A stretch of DNA of 36,603 nt from a virus. Below, piece after piece: positions 9,529 to 15,790 of the stretch. Position 1 is the stretch's first letter. The number at the start of each line of letters is the position of its first letter. The notes below the pieces were generated by a model that did no database searches, was not told where the DNA came from, and saw only the letters and a program-made list of their open reading frames with translations. Where the stretch lies: the IMG/VR virus record IMGVR_UViG_3300021963_000343, positions 1-36,603 of that record. One strand, written 5' to 3'. A program made the position numbers and the translations under genes.

Positions 9529-9870
9529 GAGATCGTTTGCGTCTTGGATTGAGCGGGCGATGCCAGCGATGCCACCAGCGCTACTGACGGTGCGCTGCCA
9601 TGCGTGTTGCTCGGGGCGTATGCGACCTGTGGGTGTCTTGACTTCGATGCTGGTGAACACAGCCAGCTGTGTGCCAACCATCTCGGGGGTGACCGTTATG
9701 GTGCGCCAGCCGATCAGGTCTGCTGAGCCACGTGCCAGGCCGAACTGCACGGGCCTGCCCGTTCGTGGATCCGGGAGACTTCCTACCTGATTCCTAAAAA
9801 GGCGCAAATTAGGAGATGTGCCGAGTGCGAGGCGGATTCGTTGCTGTAGGTCCGTCTCAGCGTTGGCCAC
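9520..9870 (-). CDS. VRR-NUC domain nuclease
   Basis: A small stand-alone PD-(D/E)XK nuclease of the VRR-NUC family. Visible family features are RLFRNQVG (23-30), VQFGLARGSADLIGW (41-55; Asp51 metal ligand), the catalytic SIEVKTPTGRIRPEQ (74-88; Glu76, Lys78, Gln88) and the terminal GGIAGIARS. The frame is open to a TTG at 9924, but that would overlap the helicase gene by 68 bases. The GTG at 9870 gives a 14-base overlap and a start ETDLQQRIRLAL typical of the family, so I use it. It lies between the helicase and the primase genes, and probably acts in recombination or replication-fork processing. Confidence 0.82.
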   Translation of the reverse strand: MANAETDLQQRIRLALGTSPNLRLFRNQVGSLPDPRTGRPVQFGLARGSADLIGWRTITVTPEMVGTQLAVFTSIEVKTPTGRIRPEQHAWQRTVSSAGGIAGIARSIQDANDLVR

Positions 9871-11209
9871 GCGCCTGATGAATCCGATACGCCCAGCCGG
9901 GACTGTAACCGCGATTCTTGGCAACCATCAGCAGTTCGGCCAACGTGCGAGCGCGGCCCACTTCAGTGCGGCGTGCGTGGCGTTCTGTGCGCTTGAGCTC
10001 TTGTAATTCACCTGCCAGCTCACGGATCACGCGCGATTTGATGGGCACGCATTGATGCCCACAGCAGGGGCAGATTGGCTGCGGCTTAAACGCTGCAAAG
10101 CATTGATCACACGTCCTTACCGATGGCGCTGGTGTGCCACGTGTGCGCCGCATCCGGTCATCAAGTGACCAGTCGCGCGGATCATCAGGGAATCCGTGGC
10201 GTGTGACGTTGCCGACGTGATCGAGGATGATCGCGGCATCTTTACCTGGCGCAGGGCGCATCACGCGGCCTACTTGCTGCAGGTAGAGGCCGAGCGATTG
10301 CGTGGGGCGCAGCAGGATCGCGCAGCTAGCGGCTGGCACATCAAAGCCCTCGCTGACCACATCGACGGTGACCAAGATGCGCGTGTGCCGGCTGGCGAAA
10401 TCGGCCACCACCTGATCACGGTCTGGCGTGTCACCTAACAGCAGCTCCGCCGTGATCCCAGCAGTCTTAAATGCGTCGCACACTGACACGGCATGTTTGA
10501 CATTGCAGCAGAACGCAATGGCCTGCTGGTCGGCTGCCAAGCGTTGGTAATGGCTGATGGCATCACCCGTCACGGTGGGCCGATCCATAGCGGCCGCGGC
10601 CTGATCATTGGCATAGTCGCCGGCACGAGATCGAATCCCAGCCAGATCAGCCACCACAGGCGGCGCATAGATCCGTGCGGGTGAGAGGTGGGCGGTTAAG
10701 ACCAGATCAGCAACGCTGGGACCAAGCACCATGGCGTCGAATGCTGCGCGCAGCCCCTCGCCTGAGAGACGGCATGGTGTGGCTGTAACGCCTAGGCGGT
10801 AAGCATCAGGCCAGTGATTGAGGATGCGCGCCCACTGGCCAGCTGTGGCGTGGTGGGCTTCATCGATGATGATCAAACCAGGCTGCCAGTCCATGCATGC
10901 AAGGCGCCGCGCGAGCGTTTGCACCGATGCGATCTGTACTGGTGCATCTGTGGCGGGCACACCGGCCGCGATGATGCCGTGCTCAAGGCCGACCCATTGC
11001 AGCTTGGCGCTGGCCTGATGGATCAGCTCGCGGCGGTGCACCAAGATCAGCACGCGGTTGCCTTTGGCTGCAGCGCTGGCGGCAATGGTGGCAAACACCA
11101 CGGTCTTGCCGCCGCCGGTGGGCAGCACTAGCAGGGGGCTGCGCGCCCCAGCTTGCAATGCCGTTCGCAGATCGCTGATTGCCTGCTGTTGGTAGGGGCG
11201 GAGATTCAC
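9857..11209 (-). CDS. SF2 DNA/RNA helicase, Res/DEAH type, with C-terminal zinc finger
   Basis: A superfamily 2 helicase. From the GTG at 11209 it opens with the Q-like motif LRPYQQQAISDL, then Walker A LPTGGGKT (29-36), DEAH box (116-119), VTATPCRLSG (motif III area, 141-150), SEGFDVP (286-292) and motif VI QQVGRVMRP (311-319). Cys residues at 367, 370, 380, 382 and 383 (CDQC, CPCC) make a likely zinc ribbon near the C-terminus. The open frame extends 53 codons further upstream, but those residues look like antisense noise; the GTG overlaps the stop of the preceding gene as GTGA. It could unwind replication or recombination intermediates. Confidence 0.9.
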   Translation of the reverse strand: MNLRPYQQQAISDLRTALQAGARSPLLVLPTGGGKTVVFATIAASAAAKGNRVLILVHRRELIHQASAKLQWVGLEHGIIAAGVPATDAPVQIASVQTLARRLACMDWQPGLIIIDEAHHATAGQWARILNHWPDAYRLGVTATPCRLSGEGLRAAFDAMVLGPSVADLVLTAHLSPARIYAPPVVADLAGIRSRAGDYANDQAAAAMDRPTVTGDAISHYQRLAADQQAIAFCCNVKHAVSVCDAFKTAGITAELLLGDTPDRDQVVADFASRHTRILVTVDVVSEGFDVPAASCAILLRPTQSLGLYLQQVGRVMRPAPGKDAAIILDHVGNVTRHGFPDDPRDWSLDDRMRRTRGTPAPSVRTCDQCFAAFKPQPICPCCGHQCVPIKSRVIRELAGELQELKRTERHARRTEVGRARTLAELLMVAKNRGYSPGWAYRIHQARGQR

Positions 11210-11538
11210 AGCGGCAACTCCAGCTGTGTGCCATCTGCAGGGGCACCGTGCATGGCGATCTGAGCCATGGTCAGAACGCGGCGCTGCTGATCGTATGCAG
11301 GGCGTGCATAACCAAGCTGGTACAGGTGCAGATCGTTTTGCAGCAGGGCGACAGCAACCGCCCGCCAAGATGGTGCACGGCCTGATGCTGCAACCTTTGC
11401 AGGCACTTCATCAGGTATCTCGTGCGAATAACAACGGGCTTTCCACATCCGCTCGTATTCCAAGACCCGCTCGGTAGCGCATTTCCCAGGAGCGAATGGC
11501 TCGATCCGCTTGTCGGTTCGCCAATGTCCGTTGCTCAT
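11206..11538 (-). CDS. Small protein sharing a domain with the IbrA-like C-terminus
   Basis: 110 residues, function unknown. Residues 56-87 (APSWRAVAVALLQNDLHLY, ending QQRR) align without gaps or nearly so with the last part of the PAPS-reductase-like protein two genes upstream (TSWKRFAITVLKND...KYLG...QQRR). Upstream of this is YERMWKARCYSHEIPDEVP (28-46), which looks like a conserved lead-in. The ATG at 11538 has a GGGG 8-12 bases ahead but overlaps the preceding gene by 128 bases. An internal ATG at 11448 would cut the overlap to 38 bases and keep the domain. The stop overlaps the helicase GTG. It belongs to the same cassette by position and by the shared domain. Confidence 0.65.
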   Translation of the reverse strand: MSNGHWRTDKRIEPFAPGKCATERVLEYERMWKARCYSHEIPDEVPAKVAASGRAPSWRAVAVALLQNDLHLYQLGYARPAYDQQRRVLTMAQIAMHGAPADGTQLELPL

Positions 11539-11833
11539 CAGTCAGAAGTCCCCATGCTTGGCGGGTGATGTCCTCAGGGCATCGCAAGGCAAGGGCGCAG
11601 GCAGCGTGGCCGATCCATGCTTTGCGGTTGAGGTTGTAATCGGTTAGTGCATTGATGCAGCTGTTGGGCCACTCGATGGTGACCCGCTGCATGTAGCGCC
11701 CATAGAGGCGGTGATTGCCGGTGAAGATCTGTGCGCGATACAGGGCAATGCGTCGATTTGGCACATCGCCCCACATGTTGAAGTGGATCTCCTCCCAGGC
11801 GTCAATGGGCAACCAAATCCTCTTGAGCTTCAC
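11411..11833 (-). CDS. Conserved helical companion of the IbrA/ParB pair
   Basis: 140 residues from the GTG at 11833, which has a perfect GGAGG nine bases upstream even though it lies 32 bases inside the ParB-fusion gene. The protein has a tryptophan-rich start (RIWLPIDAWEEIHFNMWGDV), then IEWPNSCINALTDYNLNRKA (53-72), WIGHAACALALRCPE and RQAWGLLTDEQRTLANR (91-107). I recall proteins with this WP..S/NL..NR.AW.G.AA pattern next to DUF3440/ParB gene pairs in other phages; that memory was not tested. No enzyme motif is visible. It is probably a structural or adaptor subunit of the cassette. Confidence 0.7.
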   Translation of the reverse strand: MKLKRIWLPIDAWEEIHFNMWGDVPNRRIALYRAQIFTGNHRLYGRYMQRVTIEWPNSCINALTDYNLNRKAWIGHAACALALRCPEDITRQAWGLLTDEQRTLANRQADRAIRSWEMRYRAGLGIRADVESPLLFARDT

Positions 11834-12743
11834 GTTCGAGATCCTCCGTGATGTTGTCGATCTGATCCACATCCCATGCTTTGCTGAAATCTTTGCCAAG
11901 GAACAGCGAGGCCAAACCGGTGACTTGCTTGAGGCGCAACAGCTCATCAGGGCTCATGCCGATGTGCTTGCAGATCCATGCGTCACCCTTTCCCATCTCG
12001 ATCAGTTCGGCAACGATCACGCTCATTAGCTCGATGTTGTGCGAACCACGGGCGCGGTTGTGACGGATGGTCGAAGCCATCCGGTCGTGTAGCTCCTTGC
12101 GCAGCACCACAACTGGCAGCCGGCCACCTTCGCGTTCGCGGATGCGCTCGCTGTTTTTCAGGGTCAAATAACGGTGAAAACCGTCAACGACCACATAAAG
12201 GTCACGGTCGGCATCATGCACGACAACGACAGGTTGCGTGTAACCGTCTTCCCAGATGGATGTTTCGAGTAGCGCCATTTCAGGCGGCGCCACAGAGTTG
12301 GGGTTGTAATCATTGGCGGTAACCTTCTCGATAGGAATACTGCGTACGGAGTAGACCGGGGATCGCCAAGGGTATGAATCGTTCTCGTCATGCAGTTCAT
12401 CGCCTTTGAGGGGTGGGTTGAATACACAGATCAGAGTGGTGGGCTCTAGGGCCTCAAACGTGTGCGGATCATGTTTGTCCAGCACATAGGTCACATCAGG
12501 CGAGATGGCGTGGATCTCTTGGGTTGCCTCGTTAATCAGCAGACCTTTGCCGCTGACGCAGTAACACGTTTCAAGGTGGTGTTGATAGTGCCAGCGGTGC
12601 GGCTTGCCAGGGTGCACGATGGTCTTGGTCATGCTGTATCCCATGCCGTCGTCTTCGGTTAAAAGGCGATGACTGGTGAAGCCACCCTTTGGGCAGTTCA
12701 CAATGCGTTCGGCTGGCAGTTCGGAGGCGTTAAGAATCTTCAT
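11802..12743 (-). CDS. Ectoine-synthase-like cupin fused to a ParB/IbrB-like domain
   Basis: 313 residues from the ATG at 12743, which overlaps the IbrA-like stop (ATGA). Residues 1-125 read as EctC, the cyclising enzyme of ectoine synthesis: DDGMGYS (31-37), WHYQHHLETCY (51-61), TYVLDKHDPH (85-94), CVFNPPLKGDELHDE (106-120), then SYP. Glu58, Tyr86 and His94 fall where I recall the EctC iron ligands (57, 85, 93). Residues 130-240 are a ParB/sulfiredoxin-fold domain with NDYNPNSVAP (144-153) and the signature VVVDGFHR (184-191). The rest is helical, ending EDLEREAQEDL. IbrB proteins, as I know them, are ParB domains without a cupin. No other ectoine gene is in the window, so osmolyte synthesis is unlikely and the cupin's substrate is unknown. 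Confidence 0.82.
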   Translation of the reverse strand: MKILNASELPAERIVNCPKGGFTSHRLLTEDDGMGYSMTKTIVHPGKPHRWHYQHHLETCYCVSGKGLLINEATQEIHAISPDVTYVLDKHDPHTFEALEPTTLICVFNPPLKGDELHDENDSYPWRSPVYSVRSIPIEKVTANDYNPNSVAPPEMALLETSIWEDGYTQPVVVVHDADRDLYVVVDGFHRYLTLKNSERIREREGGRLPVVVLRKELHDRMASTIRHNRARGSHNIELMSVIVAELIEMGKGDAWICKHIGMSPDELLRLKQVTGLASLFLGKDFSKAWDVDQIDNITEDLEREAQEDLVAH

Positions 12744-14056
12744 TTGGCGGAACGGTTGAGGACTTGGCTGTACTTGCGTTGGATTGACCTCTGGCGGCGT
12801 TGCTGCTCTTGCGTTGGCGCTAAACCGAGGTACTTGCAGGTGTGGTCGTTCTTGAGAACTGTGATCGCGAAACGCTTCCACGATGTAACCATGCTGTTGT
12901 GGCATGGCAGCTCGTCTAAGTGGTCTGGCGGCACTTTGATCACAACGCGCCGGAGATTGTTGCCACCATGGCGAGTGGTGCCGTTGATGTAAAAGCGAAT
13001 GCCAATGCGAGCAAGCGCATCAATGATCGAATCTGGAAGACCGCGCCCCACTCGCCCCCAGTAACGGATTGACTGAATGAAGCGCTGCTTAAAATTTGCG
13101 CTGGACTGATCTGGCAATGTGGCGAGCAAGAACTTCACGAATGATTTCCATGTGTGCCCGGCTGGCAGCTTGAAGGATTTGTAGTCAAGCTGCTTGCCGT
13201 ATGTCGCCATAAAGTTGGCACCACCAACCCTGGCGCAGAGCCGCGCCCAAATCGGCGGATCGATCACGCGATACATTGCGAGACTGGATTTGGACTCTGA
13301 CATAAAGGGCGATGCAACTCGCATCTTTTTGATCGGGATGCCAGCCATGTAGAACACGTCATAGAGACTGTTGTAATCCCACCCGAATTTTGCGTTTGCT
13401 GTCCAAATATCTTCTGTGCGCCAATCGTAGATCGGATAGCAGTTGTATGTGTGGGCTGTGTTTTTCTTAGTCCACATGCGGCCAAGCATGGTCTCTTTGT
13501 CTTGATTGAGAATTGCCCTGAAACGGTTCAGCGATTCAACGGTGCGAATGCCGATCAGGTTGGCGCATGGTTCGCCTTGGCTGTACCACTCCGCGAACAT
13601 GTCCCAGAACGTGGCGTAATCCATGTTCTCGATGAACAGGTCGCTAAAGGGATGGTTTTGGAGGTTGACGATGTAGTCCTGCTGCGGCATGGGCCTGATC
13701 CAACGGTGTTTGTCCTGTTCACCCCAGCACTGCCAGTCGATCTCGTACGAGGAGACGGTGCACGGCAGCGTGATGGGCAGGCAGCACCAATAGATGTCGA
13801 GGATGTCGCGGTTGGCTTGGAGGATGCGATGCATGAACTCCTCGCTGTGGGTGTAGTTGGCTTCGTTGTCCATGATCTGGACACCGATCTTCACTGACAG
13901 CTTGCGTTCTCGGATGTAGTCGCAAACGAGATTGAGGAGAACACCGCTGTCCTTGCCGCCTGAGAAGGAGACATAGACGCGGGTGAAGTGCTCAAAGATG
14001 AAATCCAGCCGCTCGATGGCGGCGTCGTAGACGGATTGCTCGAGGTACTGGCGCAT
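12740..14056 (-). CDS. IbrA-like PAPS-reductase-family protein (DUF3440 type)
   Basis: 438 residues. VYVSFSGGKDSGVLLNL (27-43) is the PP-loop of ATP-pyrophosphatases that adenylate a substrate (PAPS reductase, DndC, tRNA thiolases). Later motifs include IMDNEANYTHSEEF, GIRTVESLNR, YNCYPIYDWRTEDIW and MAGIPIKKMRVASPF. The order and length match the IbrA/YbdN group with its DUF3440 C-terminus (SWKRFAITVLKNDHTCKYLG, from about 392). The frame is open to a TTG at 14074; the ATG at 14056 gives the family-like start. In E. coli, IbrA and ParB-like IbrB work as a pair affecting gene expression. In phages the role is unproven: nucleic-acid modification or anti-restriction have to be considered. Confidence 0.85.
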   Translation of the reverse strand: MRQYLEQSVYDAAIERLDFIFEHFTRVYVSFSGGKDSGVLLNLVCDYIRERKLSVKIGVQIMDNEANYTHSEEFMHRILQANRDILDIYWCCLPITLPCTVSSYEIDWQCWGEQDKHRWIRPMPQQDYIVNLQNHPFSDLFIENMDYATFWDMFAEWYSQGEPCANLIGIRTVESLNRFRAILNQDKETMLGRMWTKKNTAHTYNCYPIYDWRTEDIWTANAKFGWDYNSLYDVFYMAGIPIKKMRVASPFMSESKSSLAMYRVIDPPIWARLCARVGGANFMATYGKQLDYKSFKLPAGHTWKSFVKFLLATLPDQSSANFKQRFIQSIRYWGRVGRGLPDSIIDALARIGIRFYINGTTRHGGNNLRRVVIKVPPDHLDELPCHNSMVTSWKRFAITVLKNDHTCKYLGLAPTQEQQRRQRSIQRKYSQVLNRSAK

Positions 14057-14975: not shown

Positions 14976-15790
14976 ATGCAAACCCAACTTGTTGTAATGA
15001 CCCCGCAGTGGGCTACGCAGATCCTGGAAACTGCAAATCATGACAATCGGCCTATCAGACGCGGTGCTGTAAAAAGGCTTGCCGAATCCATCAAGGAAGG
15101 GATGTGGCAGATTACCCACCAAGGAATTGCAATTGATACAAATGGAAAACTGCAAGACGGGCAGCATCGTCTTAGTGCAATTGTCGAAGCCAATCAGCCG
15201 GTTGAGATACTTCTGACAACGGGCACATACCCCGCCTCTTATGGCGTACTTGATTGTGGAGTTGGTAGAACTGCAGCCGATAGTTTGGAACGGATTGGTA
15301 CCTGCAAAAACTCAGCCCGAGCTGCGGCAGGTATTAAGGTTTACTACCTTTACAAAAGACACCCAAAAAAATCTGGGGCAATACAGACGCACCTCCGCAA
15401 ACTACAATTGTTCAGTTTTACAAAGAAAACAAAACTATTGCAGACTGGGCAACGGAGCACGGCTCATCATCTTCGTCAACCTACAGATTTTTGAATCCTT
15501 CGGCTCTTATTGCTTTTCTTTTGCTTGCAGCGGAAGATAGCGAAACCAGAGAAAAGGCTAAGACTTTTGTAAAACTGCTAGCAACTCCAAGCATGCAGCC
15601 AGAAGATTCTCCGATTTTCGCTTACAGGAGGTTGCTTGAAGGCAATTCTCTCAGTAAGCAAAACTTGCAGCAGCGCTCATTGGCTTGCATTATTAAGTGC
15701 TTTAATTATTGGGCCAATGACTTTTCATTGAAACAGTTTAAGCAACCAGCAATGAATCCTATGCCCATCATTGATGCTTCAATCTTATGA
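14976..15790 (+). pseudogene. ParB-like (SRX-fold) protein interrupted by a -1 frameshift at A7
   Basis: The first frame (ATG 14976 to stop 15494) carries the ParB-like signature: NRPI (24-27), THQGIA (47-52), DGQHRLSAI (61-69) and GVLDCGVGRTAADSL (about 90-104). After residue 130 it turns to nonsense. From 15365 the -1 frame gives sensible protein (WGNTDAPPQTT, QFYKENKTIADWATEHGSSS) that continues through 15491-15790 to end IIDASIL. Joined, the product would be about 271 residues. The shift falls on A AAA AAA at 15365-15371. It may be a programmed or transcriptional slip, a real mutation, or a homopolymer read error. Base composition is more A/T-rich than the flanking genes. The stop overlaps the RecT-like ATG. 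Function unknown. Confidence 0.75.
15365..15371 (+). other. A AAA AAA slippery heptamer inside the ParB-like gene
   Basis: Read in the upstream frame the sequence is CCA AAA AAA TCT, that is A AAA AAA, a heptamer that permits -1 slippage and, as a run of seven A, transcriptional slippage. It lies exactly where protein sense passes from the first to the -1 frame. No clear stimulatory stem is seen just downstream. Confidence 0.55.

Follow-up and report, generated by a model that had tools for sequence, protein, structure and literature searches.

Positions 11206-14056 of the window (the whole stretch of 36,603 nucleotides analyzed in this study) carry an IbrA/IbrB-type cassette on the minus strand, in which the ParB-type protein is fused to an EctC-like cupin. 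The features are listed in Table 1. A preliminary description of this DNA had proposed such a cassette. Its coordinates, its motifs and the overlap of the ATG at 12743 with the ibrA stop were as claimed; the overlap spans 4 nt (ATGA, 12740-12743) that include the ibrA TGA, and the fusion product has 313 aa. However, the cassette consists of four overlapping conserved genes, and two of these, P4 and P3, had not been named.

Table 1. Features of the cassette and the adjoining helicase gene (window coordinates)
Feature	Position	Strand	Evidence or remark
ibrA, DUF3440/PP-loop ATPase (SGGKDS, GIRxxES), 438 aa	12740..14056	-	first cassette gene
ectC::ibrB fusion, 313 aa	11802..12743	-	Pfam, phrog, NCBIfam and PDB-sequence matches
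EctC-like cupin domain, residues 1-126	12366..12743	-	PF06339 3.5e-37; Foldseek 5bxx_B TM 0.94
IbrB (ParB/Srx-fold) domain, residues 127-313	11802..12365	-	phrog_2159 5.7e-78; 4umk profile
P4, 140 aa, GTG start, all-helical	11411..11833	-	overlaps 3' end of ectC::ibrB
P3, 110 aa	11206..11538	-	overlaps P4; resembles IbrA C-terminal tail
Glu58 codon, predicted metal ligand (PlEctC Glu57)	12570..12572	-	108/108 phage, 69/69 cellular EctC
Tyr86 codon, predicted metal ligand (PlEctC Tyr84)	12486..12488	-	108/108 phage EctC
His94 codon, predicted metal ligand (PlEctC His92)	12462..12464	-	108/108 phage EctC
Phe22 codon, at substrate-flipping Trp21 of ectoine synthases	12678..12680	-	Trp 0/108 phage
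SF2 helicase	9857..11209	-	ResIII 1.1e-28; phrog_16 3.2e-105

P3 is followed by genes for the SF2 helicase, a VRR nuclease and a VapE-like primase, in that order. RecE/exonuclease VIII- and RecT-like genes come next, on the plus strand. These neighbors place the cassette within the replication region. The inferred GTG start of the helicase (11209) overlaps the P3 stop, which ties the cassette to the replication operon. Near the cassette, a phrog_5931 protein with a DGQHR motif (14976-15494, plus strand) may be a second ParB/Srx-like protein; its similarity to DndB is very weak (Pfam E 0.064). Since the terminase (52%), the endolysin (75%) and the portal are close to their counterparts in Synechococcus siphovirus S-CBS3, the host of the window phage is likely a picocyanobacterium. 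The S-CBS3 annotation contains no IbrA/EctC::IbrB cassette.

The proteins encoded with the cupin

IbrA matched DUF3440 (2.6e-53) and phrog_2302 (6.9e-108), and the SGGKDS and GIR..ES..R motifs were essentially invariant among 14 IbrAs. The C-terminal ECGxH catalytic cysteine motif of CysH is absent from IbrA, and PAPS reductase activity was rejected for this reason. By profile, the closest solved relatives were CysD and FAD synthase, both of them adenylyltransferases. The DndC/DndB phosphorothioation pair also combines a PP-loop protein with a ParB-superfamily protein. However, PADLOC detected only a weak partial DndC similarity (6.6e-7) and no match to DndA, DndD or DndE among the four cassette proteins, and the cysteine pattern is different. 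A Dnd-type defense was rejected because of the weak DndC similarity.

The IbrB domain carries the motifs DGFHR and STIRHNRARGSH. It matched phrog_2159 at 5.7e-78, and its profile matched ParB 4umk at 9.5e-4. With Pfam ParB_N below the cut-off (22.4 vs 26.3 bits) and no ParA among the ORFs scanned in the window, the domain does not classify as a canonical ParB partition protein; as a ParB-type domain that adjoins IbrA and matches phrog_2159, it classifies as IbrB. AlphaFold confidence was low across this part, the fold assignment rests on sequence profiles, and the domain arrangement is not resolved by the model. The IbrA/IbrB pairs of phages and enterobacterial plasmids likewise encode a DUF3440 protein followed by a ParB-type protein with a STIRHNRARG-type motif, but ordinary pairs have no EctC and usually lack the added IbrA cysteines C91 and C99. 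No other fused domains were found in the search of unfused IbrBs.

In 22 of 25 diverse loci, a conserved P4 gene follows IbrB. P4 was also found in EctC-less IbrAB phages, and P4 is therefore part of a wider IbrAB system. The model of P4 was all-helical (pLDDT 90.5), and searches revealed neither a known family nor a PDB relative by sequence or fold. A P4 homologue in Microcystis phage Mwe-JY13 (4560-4985 of locus L260) is annotated as ParB/sulfiredoxin. P3 resembled the IbrA tail (blastp 1e-5) and was found in nearly all EctC loci.

The EctC-like domain and its active site

Residues 19-126 of the fusion matched Ectoine_synth (PF06339) at E=3.5e-37 with 127.9 bits (cut-off 27). The score against the NCBIfam ectoine synthase PRK13290 was 136.7 (cut-off 128), and EctC crystal sequences were matched at 1e-25 and 4e-23 in a PDB sequence search. 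The AlphaFold2 model showed a confident cupin at residues 1-110, and pLDDT was mostly 83-97 in the EctC part. In the Foldseek comparison proposed by the preliminary description, EctC crystal structures ranked at the top (5bxx_B, TM 0.94 on target, rmsd 1.3 A), and the cupin domain of an XRE regulator appeared at rank 40. These results confirm that 11802-12743(-) encodes a genuine EctC-ParB fusion, as had been read from the DNA. Synonymous and nonsynonymous differences from nine relatives gave a dN/dS of 0.02-0.12 for the EctC half, indicating purifying selection. In most comparisons, the EctC half showed more synonymous divergence than the IbrB half (e.g. pS 0.51 vs 0.23 with the relative L002), a hint of recombination, or of additional constraint, where the two domains meet.

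The active-site residues were mapped from the structures of Paenibacillus lautus EctC (PMC6344544). The predicted metal ligands E58, Y86 and H94 align with Glu57, Tyr84 and His92 of that enzyme (PMC6344544), so the ligand offset stated in the preliminary description was right. All three were invariant in 108/108 distinct phage EctCs, as were S24, R26, T41, Y53 and H56, among them the family residues Arg25, Thr40 and Tyr52, and the predicted metal site is thus intact, as had been supposed. All 69 of 69 cellular EctCs have the substrate-flipping Trp, either in its canonical place or shifted upstream by three residues. In contrast, it was found in 0/108 phage EctCs, and Phe occupied one of the two positions in 103/108. 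Trp21 is conserved in canonical EctC, and the W21A variant retains 9.7% activity (PMC6344544). Kept ligands and core residues together with a lost Trp would be expected if the chemistry were conserved but the substrate had changed. This agrees with the earlier suggestion that the cupin probably acts on another substrate.

Taken with known enzymes, the phage cupin shares the fold (TM 0.94), the E/Y/H ligands and the S/R/T/Y residues with EctC of Sphingopyxis alaskensis (5bxx) and P. lautus (5ono; PF06339). It differs from them by Phe in place of Trp21, by the phage-typical residues W51/K40/D83/F96, by its own clade, by the lack of ectB, by the usual ParB fusion and by the adjacent IbrA. Orphan bacterial EctCs are similar to the phage proteins in having no ectB nearby and an intact predicted metal site (PMC6344544, PMC5924519), but they keep the Trp (canonical or shifted), fall outside the phage clade and are unlinked to IbrA/IbrB.

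Distribution and lineage of the phage EctCs

Of the 219 phage records in which IbrB was matched, only Gaia (two records), Nebkiss and XCL1123 had EctC. We then assembled 219 loci with an EctC match from IMG/VR, these named phages and two bacterial MAG contigs. EctC was fused to IbrB in 187 of them and was a separate gene at the same place in 30. The remaining two were without IbrB, one on a contig that ends before IbrB and one on a chimeric contig. IbrA lay beside EctC in all loci except the chimeric contig. A search for cupin-ParB fusions beside DUF3440 proteins had been proposed earlier. For 217 loci the EctC domain was long enough, and these gave 108 distinct sequences, the safer number because a contig was in some cases retrieved twice and counted as two loci.

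Two records were set aside. L233 (4731-5536) has EctC without IbrA, and a stretch is repeated across the break; it looks like a chimeric assembly and was rejected as a real IbrA-less locus. L084 (MT835761, 'Bacteriophage sp.') is a bacterial canonical ectB-ectC contig, an apparent contamination, and was rejected as a phage EctC.

EctC queries yielded most of the EctC loci, and a scan by IbrB motif that was blind to EctC guards against this bias. It returned at least 80 contigs. Among the matches listed, EctC was present in at least 20 of 80 contigs, always together with IbrA and P4, and P4 occurred in 23 of the 56 contigs without EctC (Fisher p=1.8e-6). In a tblastn search with EctB, the canonical loci used as control were positive and the window and all phage loci were negative, in agreement with the earlier remark that no ectB is nearby. 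In 25 diverse loci, neither DNA-modification genes nor substrate-supplying genes recurred beside the cassette.

In the EctC tree, which is built on few columns, all phage EctCs formed one clade (support 100/99) distinct from the 41 cellular EctCs, canonical and orphan, and the fused or separate state changed at least four times (starred branches). In the tree of 106 viral IbrAs, which has long branches, the 49 with EctC formed one clade against the 57 without it, with one change (SH-aLRT 100). The window IbrA falls in this single EctC-carrying clade. Its diagnostic residues include C99, P98, N64 and N67; C99 was found in 49/49 IbrAs with EctC and in 1/57 without. The simplest reading of these trees is a single EctC acquisition, with no observed loss and with co-adaptation of IbrA. 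At the level of sequence, we demonstrated that the phage EctCs form one clade, that fusion and splitting recurred at one and the same boundary, that the metal and core substrate residues are invariant, that the ectoine-specific Trp is lost, and that concordance with one IbrA lineage is complete.

The fusion is already named in GenBank for phage Gaia, and a distinct phage EctC clade is described here. Gaia (gp103-104) and XCL1123 carry the same cassette under the GenBank label 'ectoine synthase/ParB multidomain protein', which is annotation only. In XCL1123, a Pseudoalteromonas phage, the EctC and IbrB halves are separate genes; the two adjacent genes (L083, 9998-10928) both bear this label. 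In the open-access literature, we found no functional study of an EctC-ParB fusion; the terms ectoine, cupin and Ibr are absent from the main text of a 2025 survey that covers ParB-fold fusions. In the M. abscessus prophage prophiGD21-3, a PAPS-reductase-like gene lies near the gene of a protein with cysteine-dioxygenase motifs, which mark a cupin family (PMC8092301); this may be another cupin-IbrA pairing.

Candidate functions of the cassette

The intact pocket, the lost Trp and the link to IbrA/IbrB suggest that phages reuse a ring-closing enzyme for another reaction. The leading explanation, proposed tentatively, is a metal-dependent EctC-type enzyme that would work with IbrA/IbrB on a non-ectoine, perhaps nucleotide-related substrate. 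A phage IbrA-IbrB-P4 module would have gained an EctC-type metallo-cupin as an obligate partner, most simply once. The cupin would be a working Fe(II)-type enzyme with EctC-like chemistry, in which the metal activates an amide carbonyl, an amine attacks, water is lost and the ring closes. Its substrate would not be N-gamma-acetyl-diaminobutyrate but a compound made or held by IbrA and IbrB, with IbrA probably providing ATP-dependent adenylylation through its PP-loop and IbrB an NTP-binding ParB fold. More tentatively, this compound may be a nucleotide, a nucleic-acid base or a nucleotide-activated metabolite that receives a cyclic (amidine-type) modification. A nucleotide-type substrate is favored by the place of the module in an early replication operon and by partners whose folds handle nucleotides.

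The more specific proposal, a new phage nucleic-acid hypermodification in which IbrA and IbrB prepare a nucleotide or DNA base for ring-closing dehydration by the cupin, derived from an osmolyte enzyme, is possible, if rather doubtful. The preliminary description had favored phage nucleotide or nucleic-acid modification or anti-defense. With the absent ECGxH, the CysD/FAD-synthase-like profile and the weak DndC similarity, this did not advance beyond plausibility, and modification of nucleotides or nucleic acid may be called a plausible function and the most attractive form of the leading explanation. Points against that explanation are that an intact site could serve binding only, that no DNA-modification gene is recurrent beside the cassette, and that the annotations and plasmid neighbors of IbrAB would suit a regulatory role just as well.

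The main rival is regulation, in view of the co-activator annotation of IbrAB and its position beside GrlA/GrlR. Here, the EctC domain would use its metal site to bind a small metabolite and control IbrB, which with IbrA would co-activate prophage or host genes. IbrAB owes its name to the activation of prophage genes; annotations give the pair as co-activators acting on prophage gene expression, and on the Salmonella plasmid pATCC10717 (L263) they lie beside GrlA/GrlR-family regulators and SprB. These annotations and plasmid neighbors fit regulation equally well, and the Foldseek match to the XRE-regulator domain shows cupins in such a role. However, EctC is free-standing in 30 loci. In addition, 108/108 phage EctCs retain the metal and core substrate residues, which exceeds the usual needs of a sensor, and the cupin is linked to an altered lineage of IbrA and not to IbrB alone. 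We consider a sensor unlikely.

The invariant metal and core residues would serve equally an enzyme for a non-nucleotide metabolite, e.g. a cyclic amino-acid derivative that aids the phage or the infected cell, with IbrA for ATP-dependent activation. The nearest cellular orphan EctCs are also without ectB, and at least one of them, a Streptomyces orphan EctC (L097, 5959-6336), adjoins adenylation-domain-like and acyl-CoA dehydrogenase-like genes, which suggests a secondary-metabolite role for some orphan EctCs. Against this stand the nucleotide-handling folds of IbrA/IbrB and the position of the cassette among replication genes, which make it quite unlikely.

A true ectoine synthase, as an auxiliary metabolic gene fed with host or environmental N-gamma-ADABA, is very improbable, although the NCBIfam score exceeds the ectoine synthase cut-off and an H. 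elongata ectC mutant supplied with a solitary EctC of P. syringae produced ectoine (PMC5924519). The Trp is absent in 108/108 phage EctCs, and W21A lowers activity to 9.7% (PMC6344544); the clade is separate (100/99), and no ectB is nearby. We rejected it as a likely reading on this evidence; fusion to IbrB would also make little sense for osmolyte synthesis. A mere dimerization scaffold that joins IbrB copies is hardly credible, since EctC, fused to IbrB in most loci, is a separate protein in 30 and its active site is invariant.

EctC is treated as a diagnostic enzyme of ectoine makers. In this study, a distinct EctC clade was found to be resident in phages, with an intact predicted metal site and no ectoine pathway. 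An EctC match in a virome is thus no evidence for viral ectoine synthesis. Likewise, a 'PAPS reductase' match is no evidence for sulfur metabolism, as the window IbrA is without the catalytic cysteine motif. Phage Gaia (host M. smegmatis) and XCL1123 are cultured. Therefore, the function of orphan EctCs and of the long-obscure IbrA/IbrB pair is directly testable.
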